Shown in pieces: positions 1-40,191 of a stretch of DNA of 44,685 nt (positions within the stretch are counted from its first letter, which is position 1; each line of letters begins with the position of its first letter). This stretch comes from an uncultured Candidatus Melainabacteria bacterium (lineage in GTDB: Bacteria > Cyanobacteriota > Vampirovibrionia > Gastranaerophilales > Gastranaerophilaceae), in contig CATLEG010000005.1 of the NCBI GenBank assembly GCA_949915775.1, positions 1 through 44,685 on the forward strand, given 5' to 3'. The notes beneath the pieces were generated by a model that was given only the letters and a program-made list of their open reading frames with translations, searched no databases and was not told the DNA's origin. The translations under genes were made by a program, and so were the position numbers.

Positions 1-1654
1 CCTGTGCTTGTTTCAATTGTTTCTGATTGCGAGATACTTCGGCTAAAGCCTCAGTATGACGTTTTATTTGTTCGGTTAAGGCTGTTATCTTTGCATCAAG
101 TTCTTTTACCGCATTTATCAAGGCATAAAACATGTCTTCTTTGCGGATTGTTAAAAAGCCGTCTGAACCCTTTTTCACAGCATTTGGAAAAACTTTTTGC
201 AAATCCTGTGCGATTACACCGACATGCGGAACTTTTTTGTCGTCTTTTTTGTATGTATAATTAAAAACTTTTAACTGACGAATTTTATCTAAACCGGAAG
301 TAGATTCTGTACCGACGTATTTTAATCGACGGTCGGATGGTAGATAAGGACCTCCAGCTCTGCTACCATGCCTTTTATAATACCCATCATTATCATACAA
401 TGGATACATATCAGTCATTAATGCTCCTGTTTCCATATGGTGAGTACGTAATCTAATATTTCCAGTATTAGTTGACAATTCGACATCACCATCAACTCTC
501 AAATTGCCTTTGATATATACAGTTGAGTTACTATTACCCAGATATACAATATCACTTGCATCAGAAGCTTCTGTACTGCCGCTTTCCGGACCAGAATTAG
601 CACCTATACACGTTTTGTTAGATCCGGTTACACCTGCACAAGCACCAAAACCTAATGCAGTATTATTAGATACATTAGTTGGTCCACTTACATCATATTG
701 ATAAGCATTAATTAATGCAGCGGCACCTACAGCTGTATTTTTTGACCCTGTTGCATTATCAAATAAAGCATCTAAACCAATCGCGACATTATCAATACCT
801 GTTGTATTTCCGCGTCCCGCTTGTTTACCTATAAATGTATTAGAATTCCCAGTTGTATTATGTAAGCCTGCCCAAACACCTAAAATAGTATTATCAACAC
901 CTGACGTATTATTTACCAAAGCCATATGACCAATAGCAGTATTTTGTTCTCCTAAAGTGTTATGATATAATGCTTGATTACCAATAGCAATATTGTTTTT
1001 AGCTGTAGTATTACTTCCCGCCATATAACCAATAGAAATTCCATAATCACCGCCAGACTTTGCACTATAACCCAAAACAACCGAATAATCACCTGTTGTT
1101 GAATCTCCGGATGTAGCACCTAAAGATGCATTATAACCAATTACAACACCGCCTTTTTTTAATGCTTTAGCGGAATTTCCTATCAATACTCCATAATCTG
1201 AACCAGGATTAACATTTTTTCCTAAAGCTGTTGTATTTGACCCAATTGTTGAAAGACCACTGGCAAAAGAACCTAACATCATACCATTTGATCCTAAATA
1301 CATATCAGCAGTTTTTGTTCCATTCAATTTGAAAGAAATTGCCGGTGTTGAGGTATTTGGAGTATTTATTATCAGTTTACCGGAATCGGTAGCCGCTTTT
1401 GTTGACTGACCTAACATTGCTGATTGGGTATCTTTTACCCCAAAATACGCATCTATACTATCCAAACCTGCCCAGCGCCATGGTGATGATTGACTGTTAT
1501 CTGAACGCATTTTGGTCGTCATTACTGGAGCCATTGCGGCCAATATTATACTCATTATCAAGAGCACAACCATCATTTCTGCTAACGTAAAGGCATTAAT
1601 ATTTCTAGCGTTAAAATTTTTATGCCAAAAATTAGCATAACTTAATATTTTCAT
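1..1654 (-). CDS. Prepilin-like protein with YadA-type head repeats and C-terminal S74 chaperone domain (partial)
   Basis: This ORF is absent from the supplied track because it runs off the window edge. I read it codon by codon: 551 codons with no stop (2-1654). The ATG at 1654 follows an AAAGGGATGGAAG ribosome site. Residues 1-21 are a short leader, then NAFTLAEMMVVLL begins a class III (type IV pilin) signal: Phe22 as first mature residue, Glu at +5, hydrophobic helix to about 48; the -1 residue is Ala, not the usual Gly. Residues about 130-385 are repeats of the kind NTAIGHMAL and NTFIGKQAG, typical of the YadA-like left-handed roll. From Ser440 comes SDRRLK, then PHVGVIAQDLQ, typical of the S74 intramolecular chaperone of phage tail spikes, with Ser440/Lys445 spaced like its autoproteolytic dyad. 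After that a coiled coil runs off the edge. Inferred: a pilus- or surface-displayed trimeric fibre. The domain reading is firm, the function is not. Confidence 0.8.
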   Translation of the reverse strand, partial: MKILSYANFWHKNFNARNINAFTLAEMMVVLLIMSIILAAMAPVMTTKMRSDNSQSSPWRWAGLDSIDAYFGVKDTQSAMLGQSTKAATDSGKLIINTPNTSTPAISFKLNGTKTADMYLGSNGMMLGSFASGLSTIGSNTTALGKNVNPGSDYGVLIGNSAKALKKGGVVIGYNASLGATSGDSTTGDYSVVLGYSAKSGGDYGISIGYMAGSNTTAKNNIAIGNQALYHNTLGEQNTAIGHMALVNNTSGVDNTILGVWAGLHNTTGNSNTFIGKQAGRGNTTGIDNVAIGLDALFDNATGSKNTAVGAAALINAYQYDVSGPTNVSNNTALGFGACAGVTGSNKTCIGANSGPESGSTEASDASDIVYLGNSNSTVYIKGNLRVDGDVELSTNTGNIRLRTHHMETGALMTDMYPLYDNDGYYKRHGSRAGGPYLPSDRRLKYVGTESTSGLDKIRQLKVFNYTYKKDDKKVPHVGVIAQDLQKVFPNAVKKGSDGFLTIRKEDMFYALINAVKELDAKITALTEQIKRHTEALAEVSRNQKQLKQAQ

Positions 1655-1716: not shown

Positions 1717-2502
1717 TTATTTAAAATAGTATTCAATATCGGAATTTAAGTCTAATTTTTTCGCATTTTTTTTAAAAATTTTTGATTTTATACCCATTTT
1801 TGCGAGTCTGTATTGCAAACTTATTAGAAGTACGCCTAAACCGTATTTACATGAACGTACAAAATTAATTGATGAAGCTTCTTTAAAATATTTTGTAGGA
1901 CAAGATATTTCACCAATTTTATAATTATTATAAAAAAGAAGTGCTATTATTTCGTTATCAAAAATAAAATCATCATCACATTCAGCCAACGGTAAATTTT
2001 CCAGAACTTCTTTTGTAAACCCTCGAAAACCTGTATGATATTCTGATAGTTTTTCGCCTGTAAAAAAGTTTTCAAAACCTGTTAAAAACTTATTGGCAAA
2101 AAACTTATATAATGGCATTCCGCCTTTTAATGCTGAATTTCCAAGCATTCTTGATGCAAAAACAGCGTCGTATTGTCCAAAAGCCATCATACTTACAATC
2201 GCAGGTATAAGTTTTGGGGTGTATTGATAATCGGGATGCAGCATTACAACAATATCAGCTCCTGCTTTTAAAGCTGCTTTATAACAAGATTTTTGGTTTC
2301 CGCCATAACCTTTATTTTCTTTATGAACAATTGTTGTAATATTTAATTCTTTAGATACTTGTTTTGTATTATCCTGAGAATTGTCATCAACAAGAATAAC
2401 TTCATCGACGAAATCTTTATAAATTTCGTCATAAGTTTGTTTAAGTGTCTTCTCTGCATTATACGCAGGCATTATTACAACTATTTTTTTATTATTTAGC
2501 AT
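1717..2502 (-). CDS. Family 2 glycosyltransferase (polyprenyl-phosphate sugar transferase-like)
   Basis: 261 aa. The GT-A fold of family 2 is visible: VVIMPAYNAEKTL at the N-terminus, the nucleotide-binding VDDNSQDNT near residue 40, the donor-loop segment HPDYQYTP near residue 100, and the acceptor-side GFRGF and DDDFIFDNEI. It resembles DPM1-type enzymes that transfer a sugar to a polyprenyl phosphate, but it lacks the C-terminal membrane helices of the GtrB/ArnC kind, so it probably acts at the inner face of the membrane as a soluble or peripheral enzyme. The start is preceded by AAGGGTAAAAA, and that ribosome site lies inside the last unit of a triplicated 92-bp repeat. Donor and acceptor sugars cannot be read from sequence. 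Confidence 0.85.
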   Translation of the reverse strand: MLNNKKIVVIMPAYNAEKTLKQTYDEIYKDFVDEVILVDDNSQDNTKQVSKELNITTIVHKENKGYGGNQKSCYKAALKAGADIVVMLHPDYQYTPKLIPAIVSMMAFGQYDAVFASRMLGNSALKGGMPLYKFFANKFLTGFENFFTGEKLSEYHTGFRGFTKEVLENLPLAECDDDFIFDNEIIALLFYNNYKIGEISCPTKYFKEASSINFVRSCKYGLGVLLISLQYRLAKMGIKSKIFKKNAKKLDLNSDIEYYFK

Positions 2503-16277: not shown

Positions 16278-17483
16278 ATGAAAATACTTAAATCAATGCG
16301 TTTGCATATCGGAGTTTTTGGCAGAACAAATGTCGGAAAATCGTCACTTTTAAATAGAATTACCAATCAGGAAATCTCTATTGTTTCTGATATTGCAGGA
16401 ACTACAACCGATGTAGTCGAAAAATCCATGGAACTTTTACCGGTCGGGCCCGTAACTTTTTTAGATACAGCTGGGCTTGACGACAATACAGAGCTTGGCG
16501 AAATGCGTATTGAAAAAACATTAAAAGTTTTAAACCGTATTGATGTTGCCGTAATCGTTTGTGATCAACGCGGAATTGAAACTTACGAAGAAGAACTTAT
16601 CGAAAAACTTGATGAGTTAAAAATTCCTTATTTGATTGTCATGAATAAATGCGATGATGTTGTATACCCTCCCCTTGAGGGAGGGTCGAAATCTGTGATT
16701 TCGGGGAGGGGTATTTTGTATACCTCTGTTAAAACCGATGAACAGCTTGTTTTCAAATTCAAAGAGGCTCTTGTAAAACTTTTACCTGATGATTTTGTAA
16801 ATTCTCCAAAAATTGCAGGGGATTTGGTTGAACCTAAAAGTACGGTGATTCTTGTTATTCCGATTGATAAAGAAGCGCCTAAAGGAAGAATTATTTTACC
16901 GCAAGTTCAGACTTTACGCGACTTGTTGGATAATGATTGTCTAACCTATGTAGTTAAAGAAAATGAATTAAAACAGGCACTTGATAACTTAAAAACCCCG
17001 CCGGCACTTGTGATTACAGACAGTCAGGCATTTAAAAAAGTTTCAGAAATTGTTCCTGAAAATATCCCTTTAACCTCTTTTTCCATACTATTTGCAAGAC
17101 TAAAAGGGGATTTGACTGCATTTATCAAAGGGGCTCAGGCAATTGAAAATTTAAATGACGGAGATATGGTTTTAATCCTCGAAAGCTGTACTCATCATGC
17201 GATAGAAGATGATATCGGACGTGTAAAAATCCCTAATTTATTACGCAAAAAAACAGGAAAAAATCTTGTTATTCATAATTATGCAGGACATGATTTTCCG
17301 GATTTGAAAGATTATAAACTGGTAATTCATTGCGGTGCATGTATGACAAACAGGCGTGAAGTTTTATCAAGAATTTTAATTGCAAATAAAATGGAAGTGC
17401 CAATAACAAATTACGGAATAACAATTTCATATTGTCTTGATATTTTACCAAGAGCTGTTAAAATATTTAATGAGGAGAAATAA
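16278..17483 (+). CDS. hydF: [FeFe]-hydrogenase maturation GTPase HydF
   Basis: 401 aa. GTPase domain: P-loop GRTNVGKSSLLNRI, switch GTTTD, DTAGLDD, and G4 NKCD. The C-terminal metal domain carries ESCTHHAIEDD and VIHCGACMTNRREV, the CxH...HCxxC set that binds the [4Fe-4S] cluster and carries the 2Fe precursor. HydF loads the diiron subcluster into [FeFe]-hydrogenase, so this organism probably makes H2. Residues about 129-146 (YPPLEGGSKSVISGRGIL) are foreign to the family and are encoded by a palindromic repeat inserted in frame. Hydrogenase, hydE and hydG are not in the window. Confidence 0.93.
   Translation: MKILKSMRLHIGVFGRTNVGKSSLLNRITNQEISIVSDIAGTTTDVVEKSMELLPVGPVTFLDTAGLDDNTELGEMRIEKTLKVLNRIDVAVIVCDQRGIETYEEELIEKLDELKIPYLIVMNKCDDVVYPPLEGGSKSVISGRGILYTSVKTDEQLVFKFKEALVKLLPDDFVNSPKIAGDLVEPKSTVILVIPIDKEAPKGRIILPQVQTLRDLLDNDCLTYVVKENELKQALDNLKTPPALVITDSQAFKKVSEIVPENIPLTSFSILFARLKGDLTAFIKGAQAIENLNDGDMVLILESCTHHAIEDDIGRVKIPNLLRKKTGKNLVIHNYAGHDFPDLKDYKLVIHCGACMTNRREVLSRILIANKMEVPITNYGITISYCLDILPRAVKIFNEEK
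16664..16714. repeat. Palindromic repeat inserted in frame within hydF
   Basis: ATACCCTCCCC...GGGGAGGGGTAT arms pair across a 51-bp block with an inner ATC...GAT hairpin. It lies right after the G4 motif NKCD and adds about 17 residues. Confidence 0.85.
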
Positions 17484-39292: not shown

Positions 39293-39972
39293 TGAAATTT
39301 AGATACAAGCTTATACTAAAACTTCACACATCGTCCCCTCCATCGGCACTACGTGCGTAGCCACGCCGATAAACATTGATGATATTTGTTCTGTTTTGGA
39401 GAAGGTTAGCCGCTTGACCCGCCACTTGGGTTTTGGTGTTATTTTAAAGGCGTCATTGCGAGGAGCGAAGCGACGTGGCAATCCATTAATTTATAGGTTA
39501 AGTAATCAAAATAAAACCCTCCCTTACCACCTCTCACAAACGATACTCAATCGTTTGTTCGGCAGAGTCTTACAAAAGGAGGGGATAAAAAAGTCACGTC
39601 ATACTGAACTAGTTTCAGCATCTCAAGTTAACCCTCTCCTGTCACTTCGTGACACCTGCTTGGTTACTCGTGTTAAACGGCAATTCCGCATTTTGCCGCA
39701 GAGCCTTTGGCTCTTTGCAAAATTGCTCCAGCCTCGGCTCGCAATCCGCCTCCCCCAAGGGAGGGAAAATACTCTGTGCGCGATACCTACATCAAAATCT
39801 ACAAAATCTTCACCAATGTCTACCGGCAGGGCTACGTGCGTAGCACACGATAAGAACTTATCGACCTATCATCTTAACGTCTTAAAGACTGATAAAAACC
39901 CCTCCCTAACCACCTCTCACAAACGATACTCAATCGTTTGTTCGGCAGAGTACCTTGGAGAGGGAACAATTA
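39293..39972. repeat. Mosaic of palindromic repeats without genes
   Basis: 680 bp with no credible gene. Recognisable parts: GATACAAGCTTATACTAAA (MITE end remnant, 39302), AGCCGCTTGACCCGCCACTTGGGT (like the 93-bp units, 39408), GCGTCATTGCGAGGAGCGAAGCGACG (39450), TCACAAACGATACTCAATCGTTTGTTCGGCAGAGT twice (39533 and 39916), CCCTCCC-type blocks, and CGATAAGAACTTATCG (39848). The long tracked ORF 39396-39983 is made of these repeats. Confidence 0.85.
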
Positions 39973-40191
39973 TTACCTATTAAAAATATTCTTATCTTTC
40001 AAATCTTTTTTATGAACTAAAAGTCCGCATTTTGAACAGGCAAGTATTTCACCGGAGCTATCAACAGGCAAAAATACATGCTCGCAATCTGTTTCTTTAA
40101 GTTCATCCTGCGCAAAAGGGTCAAACTTTTTTGAAGATTCGTATTTTTTATCCGGAAAAATCCATCTAAAAATTAATTCAACCAAATACAT
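39973..40191 (-). CDS. Small zinc-ribbon-like protein
   Basis: 72 aa from ATG 40191, directly after the cdd stop. It has a hydrophobic N-terminus (MYLVELIFRWIF), an acidic middle, and ETDCEHVFLPVDSSGEILACSKCGLLV, where the Cys and His spacing fits a small zinc ribbon. Function unknown. Confidence 0.6.
   Translation of the reverse strand: MYLVELIFRWIFPDKKYESSKKFDPFAQDELKETDCEHVFLPVDSSGEILACSKCGLLVHKKDLKDKNIFNR

Follow-up and report, generated by a model that had tools for sequence, protein, structure and literature searches.

A conserved fusion of a type IV prepilin signal with an S74 domain in Gastranaerophilales, a candidate for a phage-type trimeric spike on pili

An S74 prepilin gene at the edge of the contig

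The stretch analyzed here, the window, is the entire contig CATLEG010000005.1 (G000:C5, 44,685 nucleotides) of the 2.04-Mb draft genome of an uncultured Candidatus Melainabacteria bacterium belonging to the order Gastranaerophilales (GCA_949915775.1). At its left edge lies a gene for a modular prepilin, in which a type IV prepilin signal is followed by a trimeric-adhesin-like head and a Peptidase_S74 domain (S74). An earlier, sequence-only reading had noticed this combination in one open reading frame (ORF). All of the features it named are present, but the gene is located on the minus strand and is incomplete at its 3′ end. The following features were assigned:

2..1654, minus strand: gene for the S74 modular prepilin; starts with the ATG at 1654, stays open as far as nucleotide 2 (551 codons) and is cut at its 3′ end by the contig edge
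1592..1654, minus strand: leader peptide, residues 1–21, predicted prepilin peptidase cut A21/F22 (N_methyl match, FTLAE register)
1517..1591, minus strand: pilin alpha-1N helix, mature residues 1–25 with F1, E5 and P22 (homologue conservation; predicted helix at 3–25)
1295..1486, minus strand: conserved post-helix segment (SSPWxxA...DAYFG...AMLGQ...LIINTP...FKLNG), residues ~57–120 (family alignment)
575..1294, minus strand: YadA-like beta-roll head with NxAIGxxAL repeats of ~17 residues, residues 121–360 (predicted strands, YadA and BpaC profile matches, Pfam)
338..544, minus strand: neck or stalk ahead of the cleavage site (VYIKGNLRVDGDV...), residues 371–439 (family alignment)
173..337, minus strand: Peptidase_S74 intramolecular chaperone auto-processing domain, residues 440–494 (Pfam, structure-profile matches, conservation)
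335–337 and 320–322, minus strand: predicted S74 dyad of Ser440 and Lys445 (invariance in 57 sequences)
2..142, minus strand: C-terminal coiled coil, residues ~505–551, truncated at the contig edge (helix 106–151 of the C-terminal model)
1..337, minus strand: 337-bp block starting at the Ser440 codon, 97.9% identical to the paralogue on contig C4, which the head DNA is not

Both ends of the fusion are matched in the same ORF above the curated Pfam cut-offs, N_methyl at residues 17–41 (24.5 bits, cut-off 21.2) and Peptidase_S74 at residues 440–494 (60.5 bits, cut-off 22), as the first reading had proposed. TIGR02532, the prepilin N-terminal domain, also scores above its cut-off, and Pfam YadA_head stays below (E = 0.01). 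The prepilin signal is of canonical class III type. Its FTLAE motif is present as claimed, but the context has to be corrected to A/FTLAE, with Ala rather than Gly at position −1. Ala is an allowed alternative to Gly at this site. The SDRRLK motif reported for the S74 domain was located at residues 440–445.

Besides the window copy, the genome carries a complete S74 pilin gene on contig C4 and a 5′-cut copy on C46. The complete paralogue ends about 10 residues beyond the window copy (...QLKQAQDEELKILRST), and the window gene is probably short of only a few C-terminal residues.

Domain assignment by profiles and structure prediction

Searched against the PDB, a profile of the protein family matched the heads of BpaC (7o23, 5.9e-28) and YadA (1p9h, 4.2e-16) over its middle part, S74 proteins such as MYRF and phage fibres over its C-terminal part and, at the N-terminus, geopilin and MshA with weak scores. 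A profile of the S74 domain alone matched MYRF (7dc3, 8.2e-18), 3gud and several fibre proteins, namely the subunit of a phage long tail fibre (6f45), a tail fibre (8jov) and an L-shaped fibre (8hqz). Pfam YadA_head is matched by 21 of 35 family members (best 4.3e-37), and the trimeric-adhesin-like head of the sequence-only reading is borne out by these matches. Identity with a trimeric autotransporter was rejected, since no YadA beta-barrel is among the Pfam families shown for the 35 members and the C-terminus consists of S74 and a coiled coil.

The structure predictions are monomer models, and their alignments drew on the window, related loci and viral loci. The model starts with the helix at mature residues 3–25, with a predicted local distance difference test score (pLDDT) of about 80. 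Mature residues 26–96, the place of the globular beta-sheet module in type IV pilins, are mostly below a pLDDT of 50, though the conserved post-helix segment falls there. A regular beta-roll follows, with a strand every ~17 residues and high confidence at about 200–360 (pLDDT up to 96). The monomer ends in a C-terminal helix, which in a model of the C-terminal part is 46 residues long with a pLDDT of 97–98. Compared with a library of viral structures, the matches were S74 or intramolecular-chaperone proteins of phages and giant viruses, with low TM-scores (template modelling scores) over long alignments. Giant-virus proteins among the S74 and adhesin fold matches came from Tupanvirus, Edafosvirus and Bodo saltans virus.

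Distribution and conservation of the fusion

The pairing of a prepilin signal with S74 was sought in this phylum, in phage records and in IMG/VR; the locus counts given here are not counts of independent events. S74 is present in 99 of the 192 genomes of the order. A contig scan with the single window protein as query returned only two relatives, and 49 fusions were retrieved automatically from fetched loci of the order. Two more (L068 and L093) have the signal preceded by a long in-frame upstream stretch, three further complete fusions came from the cluster analysis (the second S74 pilin of L233, that of L234, and ones in L235), and three other S74 ORFs of the fetched set are 5′-incomplete. 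Altogether, the signal was found in at least 54 of the 55 complete S74 ORFs checked in the order, which excludes the mis-joined neighbouring gene that the sequence-only reading had considered as a source of the prepilin segment. The single complete S74 ORF without a signal belongs to family f4 (G011, 88% complete, 7% contaminated). In other families of the phylum, no prepilin signal was found in S74 ORFs with a readable N-terminus; two of the ORFs (L220 and L222) are 5′-cut. The further fusions asked for in the first reading are found across Gastranaerophilales, on tens of independent contigs, in many genera and in three families.

The leader regions of L068 and L093 contain stretches resembling dispersed repeats (RHTELVSASQ, SLRGAKRRGNP) in frame with the S74 prepilin, and their true starts are uncertain. 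A reading frame at 39396–39983 of the window also resembles translated dispersed repeats of this kind (RHTELVSASQ, SLRGAKRRGNP).

Conservation includes the predicted catalytic residues. All 49 fusions retain the five defined residues of SDxRLK, namely Ser, Asp, Arg, Leu and Lys, and SDxRxK is intact in the complete ORFs that carry the signal. Across 57 S74 sequences from phages and bacteria, S, D, K, A and Q do not vary. Ser440 and Lys445 are conserved. On the pilin side, mature E5 (E26) and P22 (P43) are invariant in 35 aligned members and F1 (F22) is found in more than 90% of them; in 41 of the 42 scorable homologues, an A or G precedes the mature N-terminus. The distance from the Ser to the stop codon varies between 106 and 162 residues in the 49 homologues. 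Judged by these alignments, the fusion is genuine and conserved as one protein family.

Relation to phage tail spikes

In tblastn searches against phage records, residues ~97–531 are collinear with tail spikes or fibres of Roseobacter phages, P-SSM2 and SPO1, and PHROG tail-fibre families span both the head and S74. The S74 spikes and fibres of phages, such as the K1F endosialidase, the T5 L-shaped fibre and the SPO1 tailspike, likewise combine a head, S74 and a coiled coil, and the collinearity extends over about 400 residues. In contrast to them, the S74 pilin has a prepilin signal in place of the virion-attachment N-terminus and its neighbourhood is not of phage type. A prepilin signal is absent from all 92 viral S74 ORFs examined, which come from 80 loci and of which 73 are complete on the 5′ side. 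The simplest reading of these alignments would be that a pilin part stands where a tail spike has its part for attachment to the virion.

Near-constant ends and variable heads

The copies on C4 and C5 differ in the degree of conservation along the gene. At the DNA level, the first 75 codons of the mature part are 94.7% identical, the head 71% and 90 codons of S74 97.4%; the near-identical 3′ block starts at the Ser440 codon. Three other genomes with several copies (G043, G146 and G018) show the same trend of similar ends and differing heads. This pattern fits homogenisation of the ends, or selection on them, together with a putative diversification of the heads. The near-identity of the 3′ block may also be the reason why contig C5 breaks at the end of the gene. 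The family looks like an assortment of adhesive spikes that type IV pili could use interchangeably.

Genomic context and prepilin load

Genes for a secretin, PilB/GspE and PilC/GspF are clustered on contig C30, which is the single cluster of this kind in the genome. The 2.04-Mb draft has 70 N_methyl matches. Genomes of family f1 have 48–111 each, as against 0–36 in most other families of the order; one genome of family f5 (G005) has 88. Further large modular pilins, with domains assigned by eye, were observed in family f3 (L245:593-6699, L246:3131-5182 and L247:2116-6501). Three of them, of 665–681 residues, lie in tandem and have lectin-like units repeated at the C-terminus; other tandem pilins have RCC1-like YCWGxGxxGxLGDNN repeats.

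The genes around the window S74 pilin are housekeeping genes. A family-2-type glycosyltransferase ORF (1717–2502, minus strand) lies 62 bp upstream on the same strand and is possibly co-transcribed. It was dropped as a partner of the S74 pilin, as no glycosyltransferase gene lies directly upstream of the paralogue on C4.

Proposed function as a spike on type IV pili

The gene product is interpreted as a modular minor type IV pilin with a phage-type trimeric spike as ectodomain, probably located at the pilus tip, whose S74 domain would trimerise and then cut itself off. A probability of roughly 60% is assigned to this reading. The pre-protein would insert into the inner membrane via its alpha-1 helix and would be cut after Ala21 by the prepilin peptidase. 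In the periplasm, the coiled coil and S74 would gather three ectodomains into an intertwined spike, and S74 would then cleave before Ser440 and depart, leaving the trimer locked. Carried on three pilin helices, the spike would be loaded by the genome's one secretin/PilB/PilC machine. It would most likely form a cap or tip, in which the first three positions of the filament could be occupied by three subunits. It would be displayed as an adhesin, with the variable heads setting the binding specificity and the near-constant ends serving assembly.

Several points weigh against this interpretation. The prepilin peptidase (Peptidase_A24) was not found in the draft genome; this is probably an assembly gap, because one is present in 22 of the 24 sampled genomes of the genus. 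The S74 pilin genes are not adjacent to the machinery genes. A trimer with threefold (C3) symmetry is no obvious fit to a pilus built as a one-start helix. Finally, Foldseek searches of the PDB gave nothing significant for the full monomer or for the S74 domain alone, matches with E > 1 being disregarded. Monomer models of intertwined trimers can fail to give a match, and support was drawn instead from the sequence profiles and the viral structure models.

The prepilin signal could instead be a mere export signal or inner-membrane anchor, or serve a release like that of a type II secretion system, with the trimeric S74 fibre standing outside the pilus. The prepilin signals of family f1 go beyond the expected need of one pilus, and both the difficulty of packing a C3 fibre into a helical filament and the missing linkage to pilus genes are in keeping with an anchor. 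However, the family retains E5 and P22 throughout, as expected of subunits packing into a filament, the residue at −1 is nearly always A or G, and the genome has only one cluster of secretin, ATPase and platform genes. An anchor function is considered rather unlikely.

Sets of three S74 pilins

In families f7 (L233 and L234) and f6 (L236 and L237), three adjacent S74 prepilin genes on the same strand are followed by a fourth pilin gene without S74, and L235 of f6 also has three adjacent S74 prepilin genes. The fourth pilin thus follows the set in four of the five f6 and f7 loci. It is encoded at L233:12118-13602, L236:9423-10319 and L237:4725-5690, and its Pfam match is N_methyl only. In genus g6, three S74 pilins lie within one locus in three of the four genomes read (L238–L240). 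Exactly three S74 pilins were counted in 16 of the 19 S74-bearing g6 genomes and in five f6/f7 genomes; the genera g11 and g20 mostly have one, and g1 has 1–11. In a tree of the S74 domain, which is weakly resolved with 92 columns, the paralogue lines of g6 and of f6/f7 are separate, and most lines within g6 and f6 span several genomes. The S74 dyad is intact in every set member read.

In f7 and f6, a gene for a HydF-like GTPase was observed next to the S74 sets or close to them (L233:13668-14894 and L235:12382-13647). A similar gene is located at 16278–17483 of the window, about 15 kb from its S74 pilin.

The three-gene sets are compatible either with a heterotrimer that arose repeatedly or with three separate homotrimers. 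In the first case, lineages with three S74 pilins would build the spike from one copy of each paralogue, as an asymmetric tip similar to the GspI-J-K complex of minor pseudopilins, and lineages with a single gene would form homotrimers. The loci in f6, f7 and g6, the recurring count of exactly three, the separate paralogue lines shared by several genomes and the intact dyads all point in this direction. On the other side, g11 and g20 with their mostly single genes and g1 with its varying number do not follow the pattern, three homotrimers of different specificity account equally well for the counts, and the tree is poorly resolved. We know of no solved S74 heterotrimer. The heterotrimer is accordingly kept as a tentative and rather improbable proposal. 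More doubtful still is the wider idea that in Gastranaerophilales a phage-related spike of three S74 pilins caps the type IV pili. This cap would be an obligate heterotrimer of three dedicated paralogues in several lineages, and S74 cleavage would be a quality control that licenses the trimer for priming the filament.

Relation to described systems

The sequence-only reading had regarded the domain logic as undescribed, which does not hold. In the work that defined modular pilins, the combination of N_methyl and S74 (IPR012902-IPR030392) is among the 15 most frequent architectures and is read as a predicted peptidase (Raynaud et al., 2021; PMC8179133). The same study proposes presentation at the tip for modular pilins, with PilB of S. 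sanguinis as a tip-compatible precedent. The S74 pilins share with these proteins a functional module grafted on a pilin N-terminus; the main text is without trimerisation, a YadA-like head, the relation to phage spikes, Gastranaerophilales, near-constant ends with variable heads, and three-gene sets (PMC8179133).

Bacterial fibres matured by S74 are also known. In Bdellovibrio, S74 fibres cleave themselves and form trimers on the cell surface (PMC10769870, 2024). The S74 subgroup of these MAT proteins likewise consists of chromosomally encoded fibres ending in a phage-type S74 with an SDxxxK motif, with several paralogues that differ in their tips. As described, MATs have a signal peptide and a conserved beta domain of ~130 residues (PMC10769870), whereas the N-terminus found here is a class III prepilin signal with a type IV pilin helix. 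The YadA and BpaC autotransporters have the beta-roll head repeats in common with the S74 pilins, which differ by lacking a C-terminal beta-barrel, by their S74 C-terminus and by an anchor at the N-terminal instead of the C-terminal end. MYRF, a strong profile match, is also membrane-tethered with S74 after a beta-helical stalk, but it is eukaryotic, its cleavage frees a transcription factor, and both topology and purpose differ from those of the S74 pilin.

The listing of IPR012902-IPR030392 pilins as predicted peptidases would suit an S74 domain that is a peptidase effector of the pilus acting on other proteins (PMC8179133). The domain stands directly after the beta-structured head as in tail spikes, which is the order needed by a chaperone. 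To our knowledge, characterised S74 domains, also those of MYRF and phage fibres, cut their own chain after trimerisation. Such self-cleavage was described for the S74 of Bd3182, where it is abolished by the exchange S782A (PMC10769870), and an effector function seems very improbable. A mis-assembly, or a phage remnant reading into a pilin gene, as the contig edge and the phage-like head and S74 might suggest, can practically be dismissed, since the same fusion in homologues across many genera refutes the former, and the latter is rejected by the housekeeping context, the prepilin N-terminus and the viral copies, none of which has the signal.

The catalogued prepilin–S74 fusion and the S74-matured bacterial fibres are thus already known. 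A description of an S74 pilin as a trimeric spike was not found in the literature searched, which is part of the whole literature. New are the interpretation as a spike, the collinearity with phage proteins, the near-constant ends with variable heads, and the recurrent three-gene sets, which raise the question of a heterotrimer.

If the S74 pilin is a tip-located trimeric spike, it would bring together the type IV pilus and the trimeric, self-trimming spike of phages, both of them well studied. This would pose a testable structural question, namely how a filament that grows by one subunit at a time takes up an obligate trimer. Pilins catalogued as 'peptidase' would be reassigned to chaperone-matured adhesins, and a common, mostly uncultured gut lineage would have a candidate attachment system with swappable heads.
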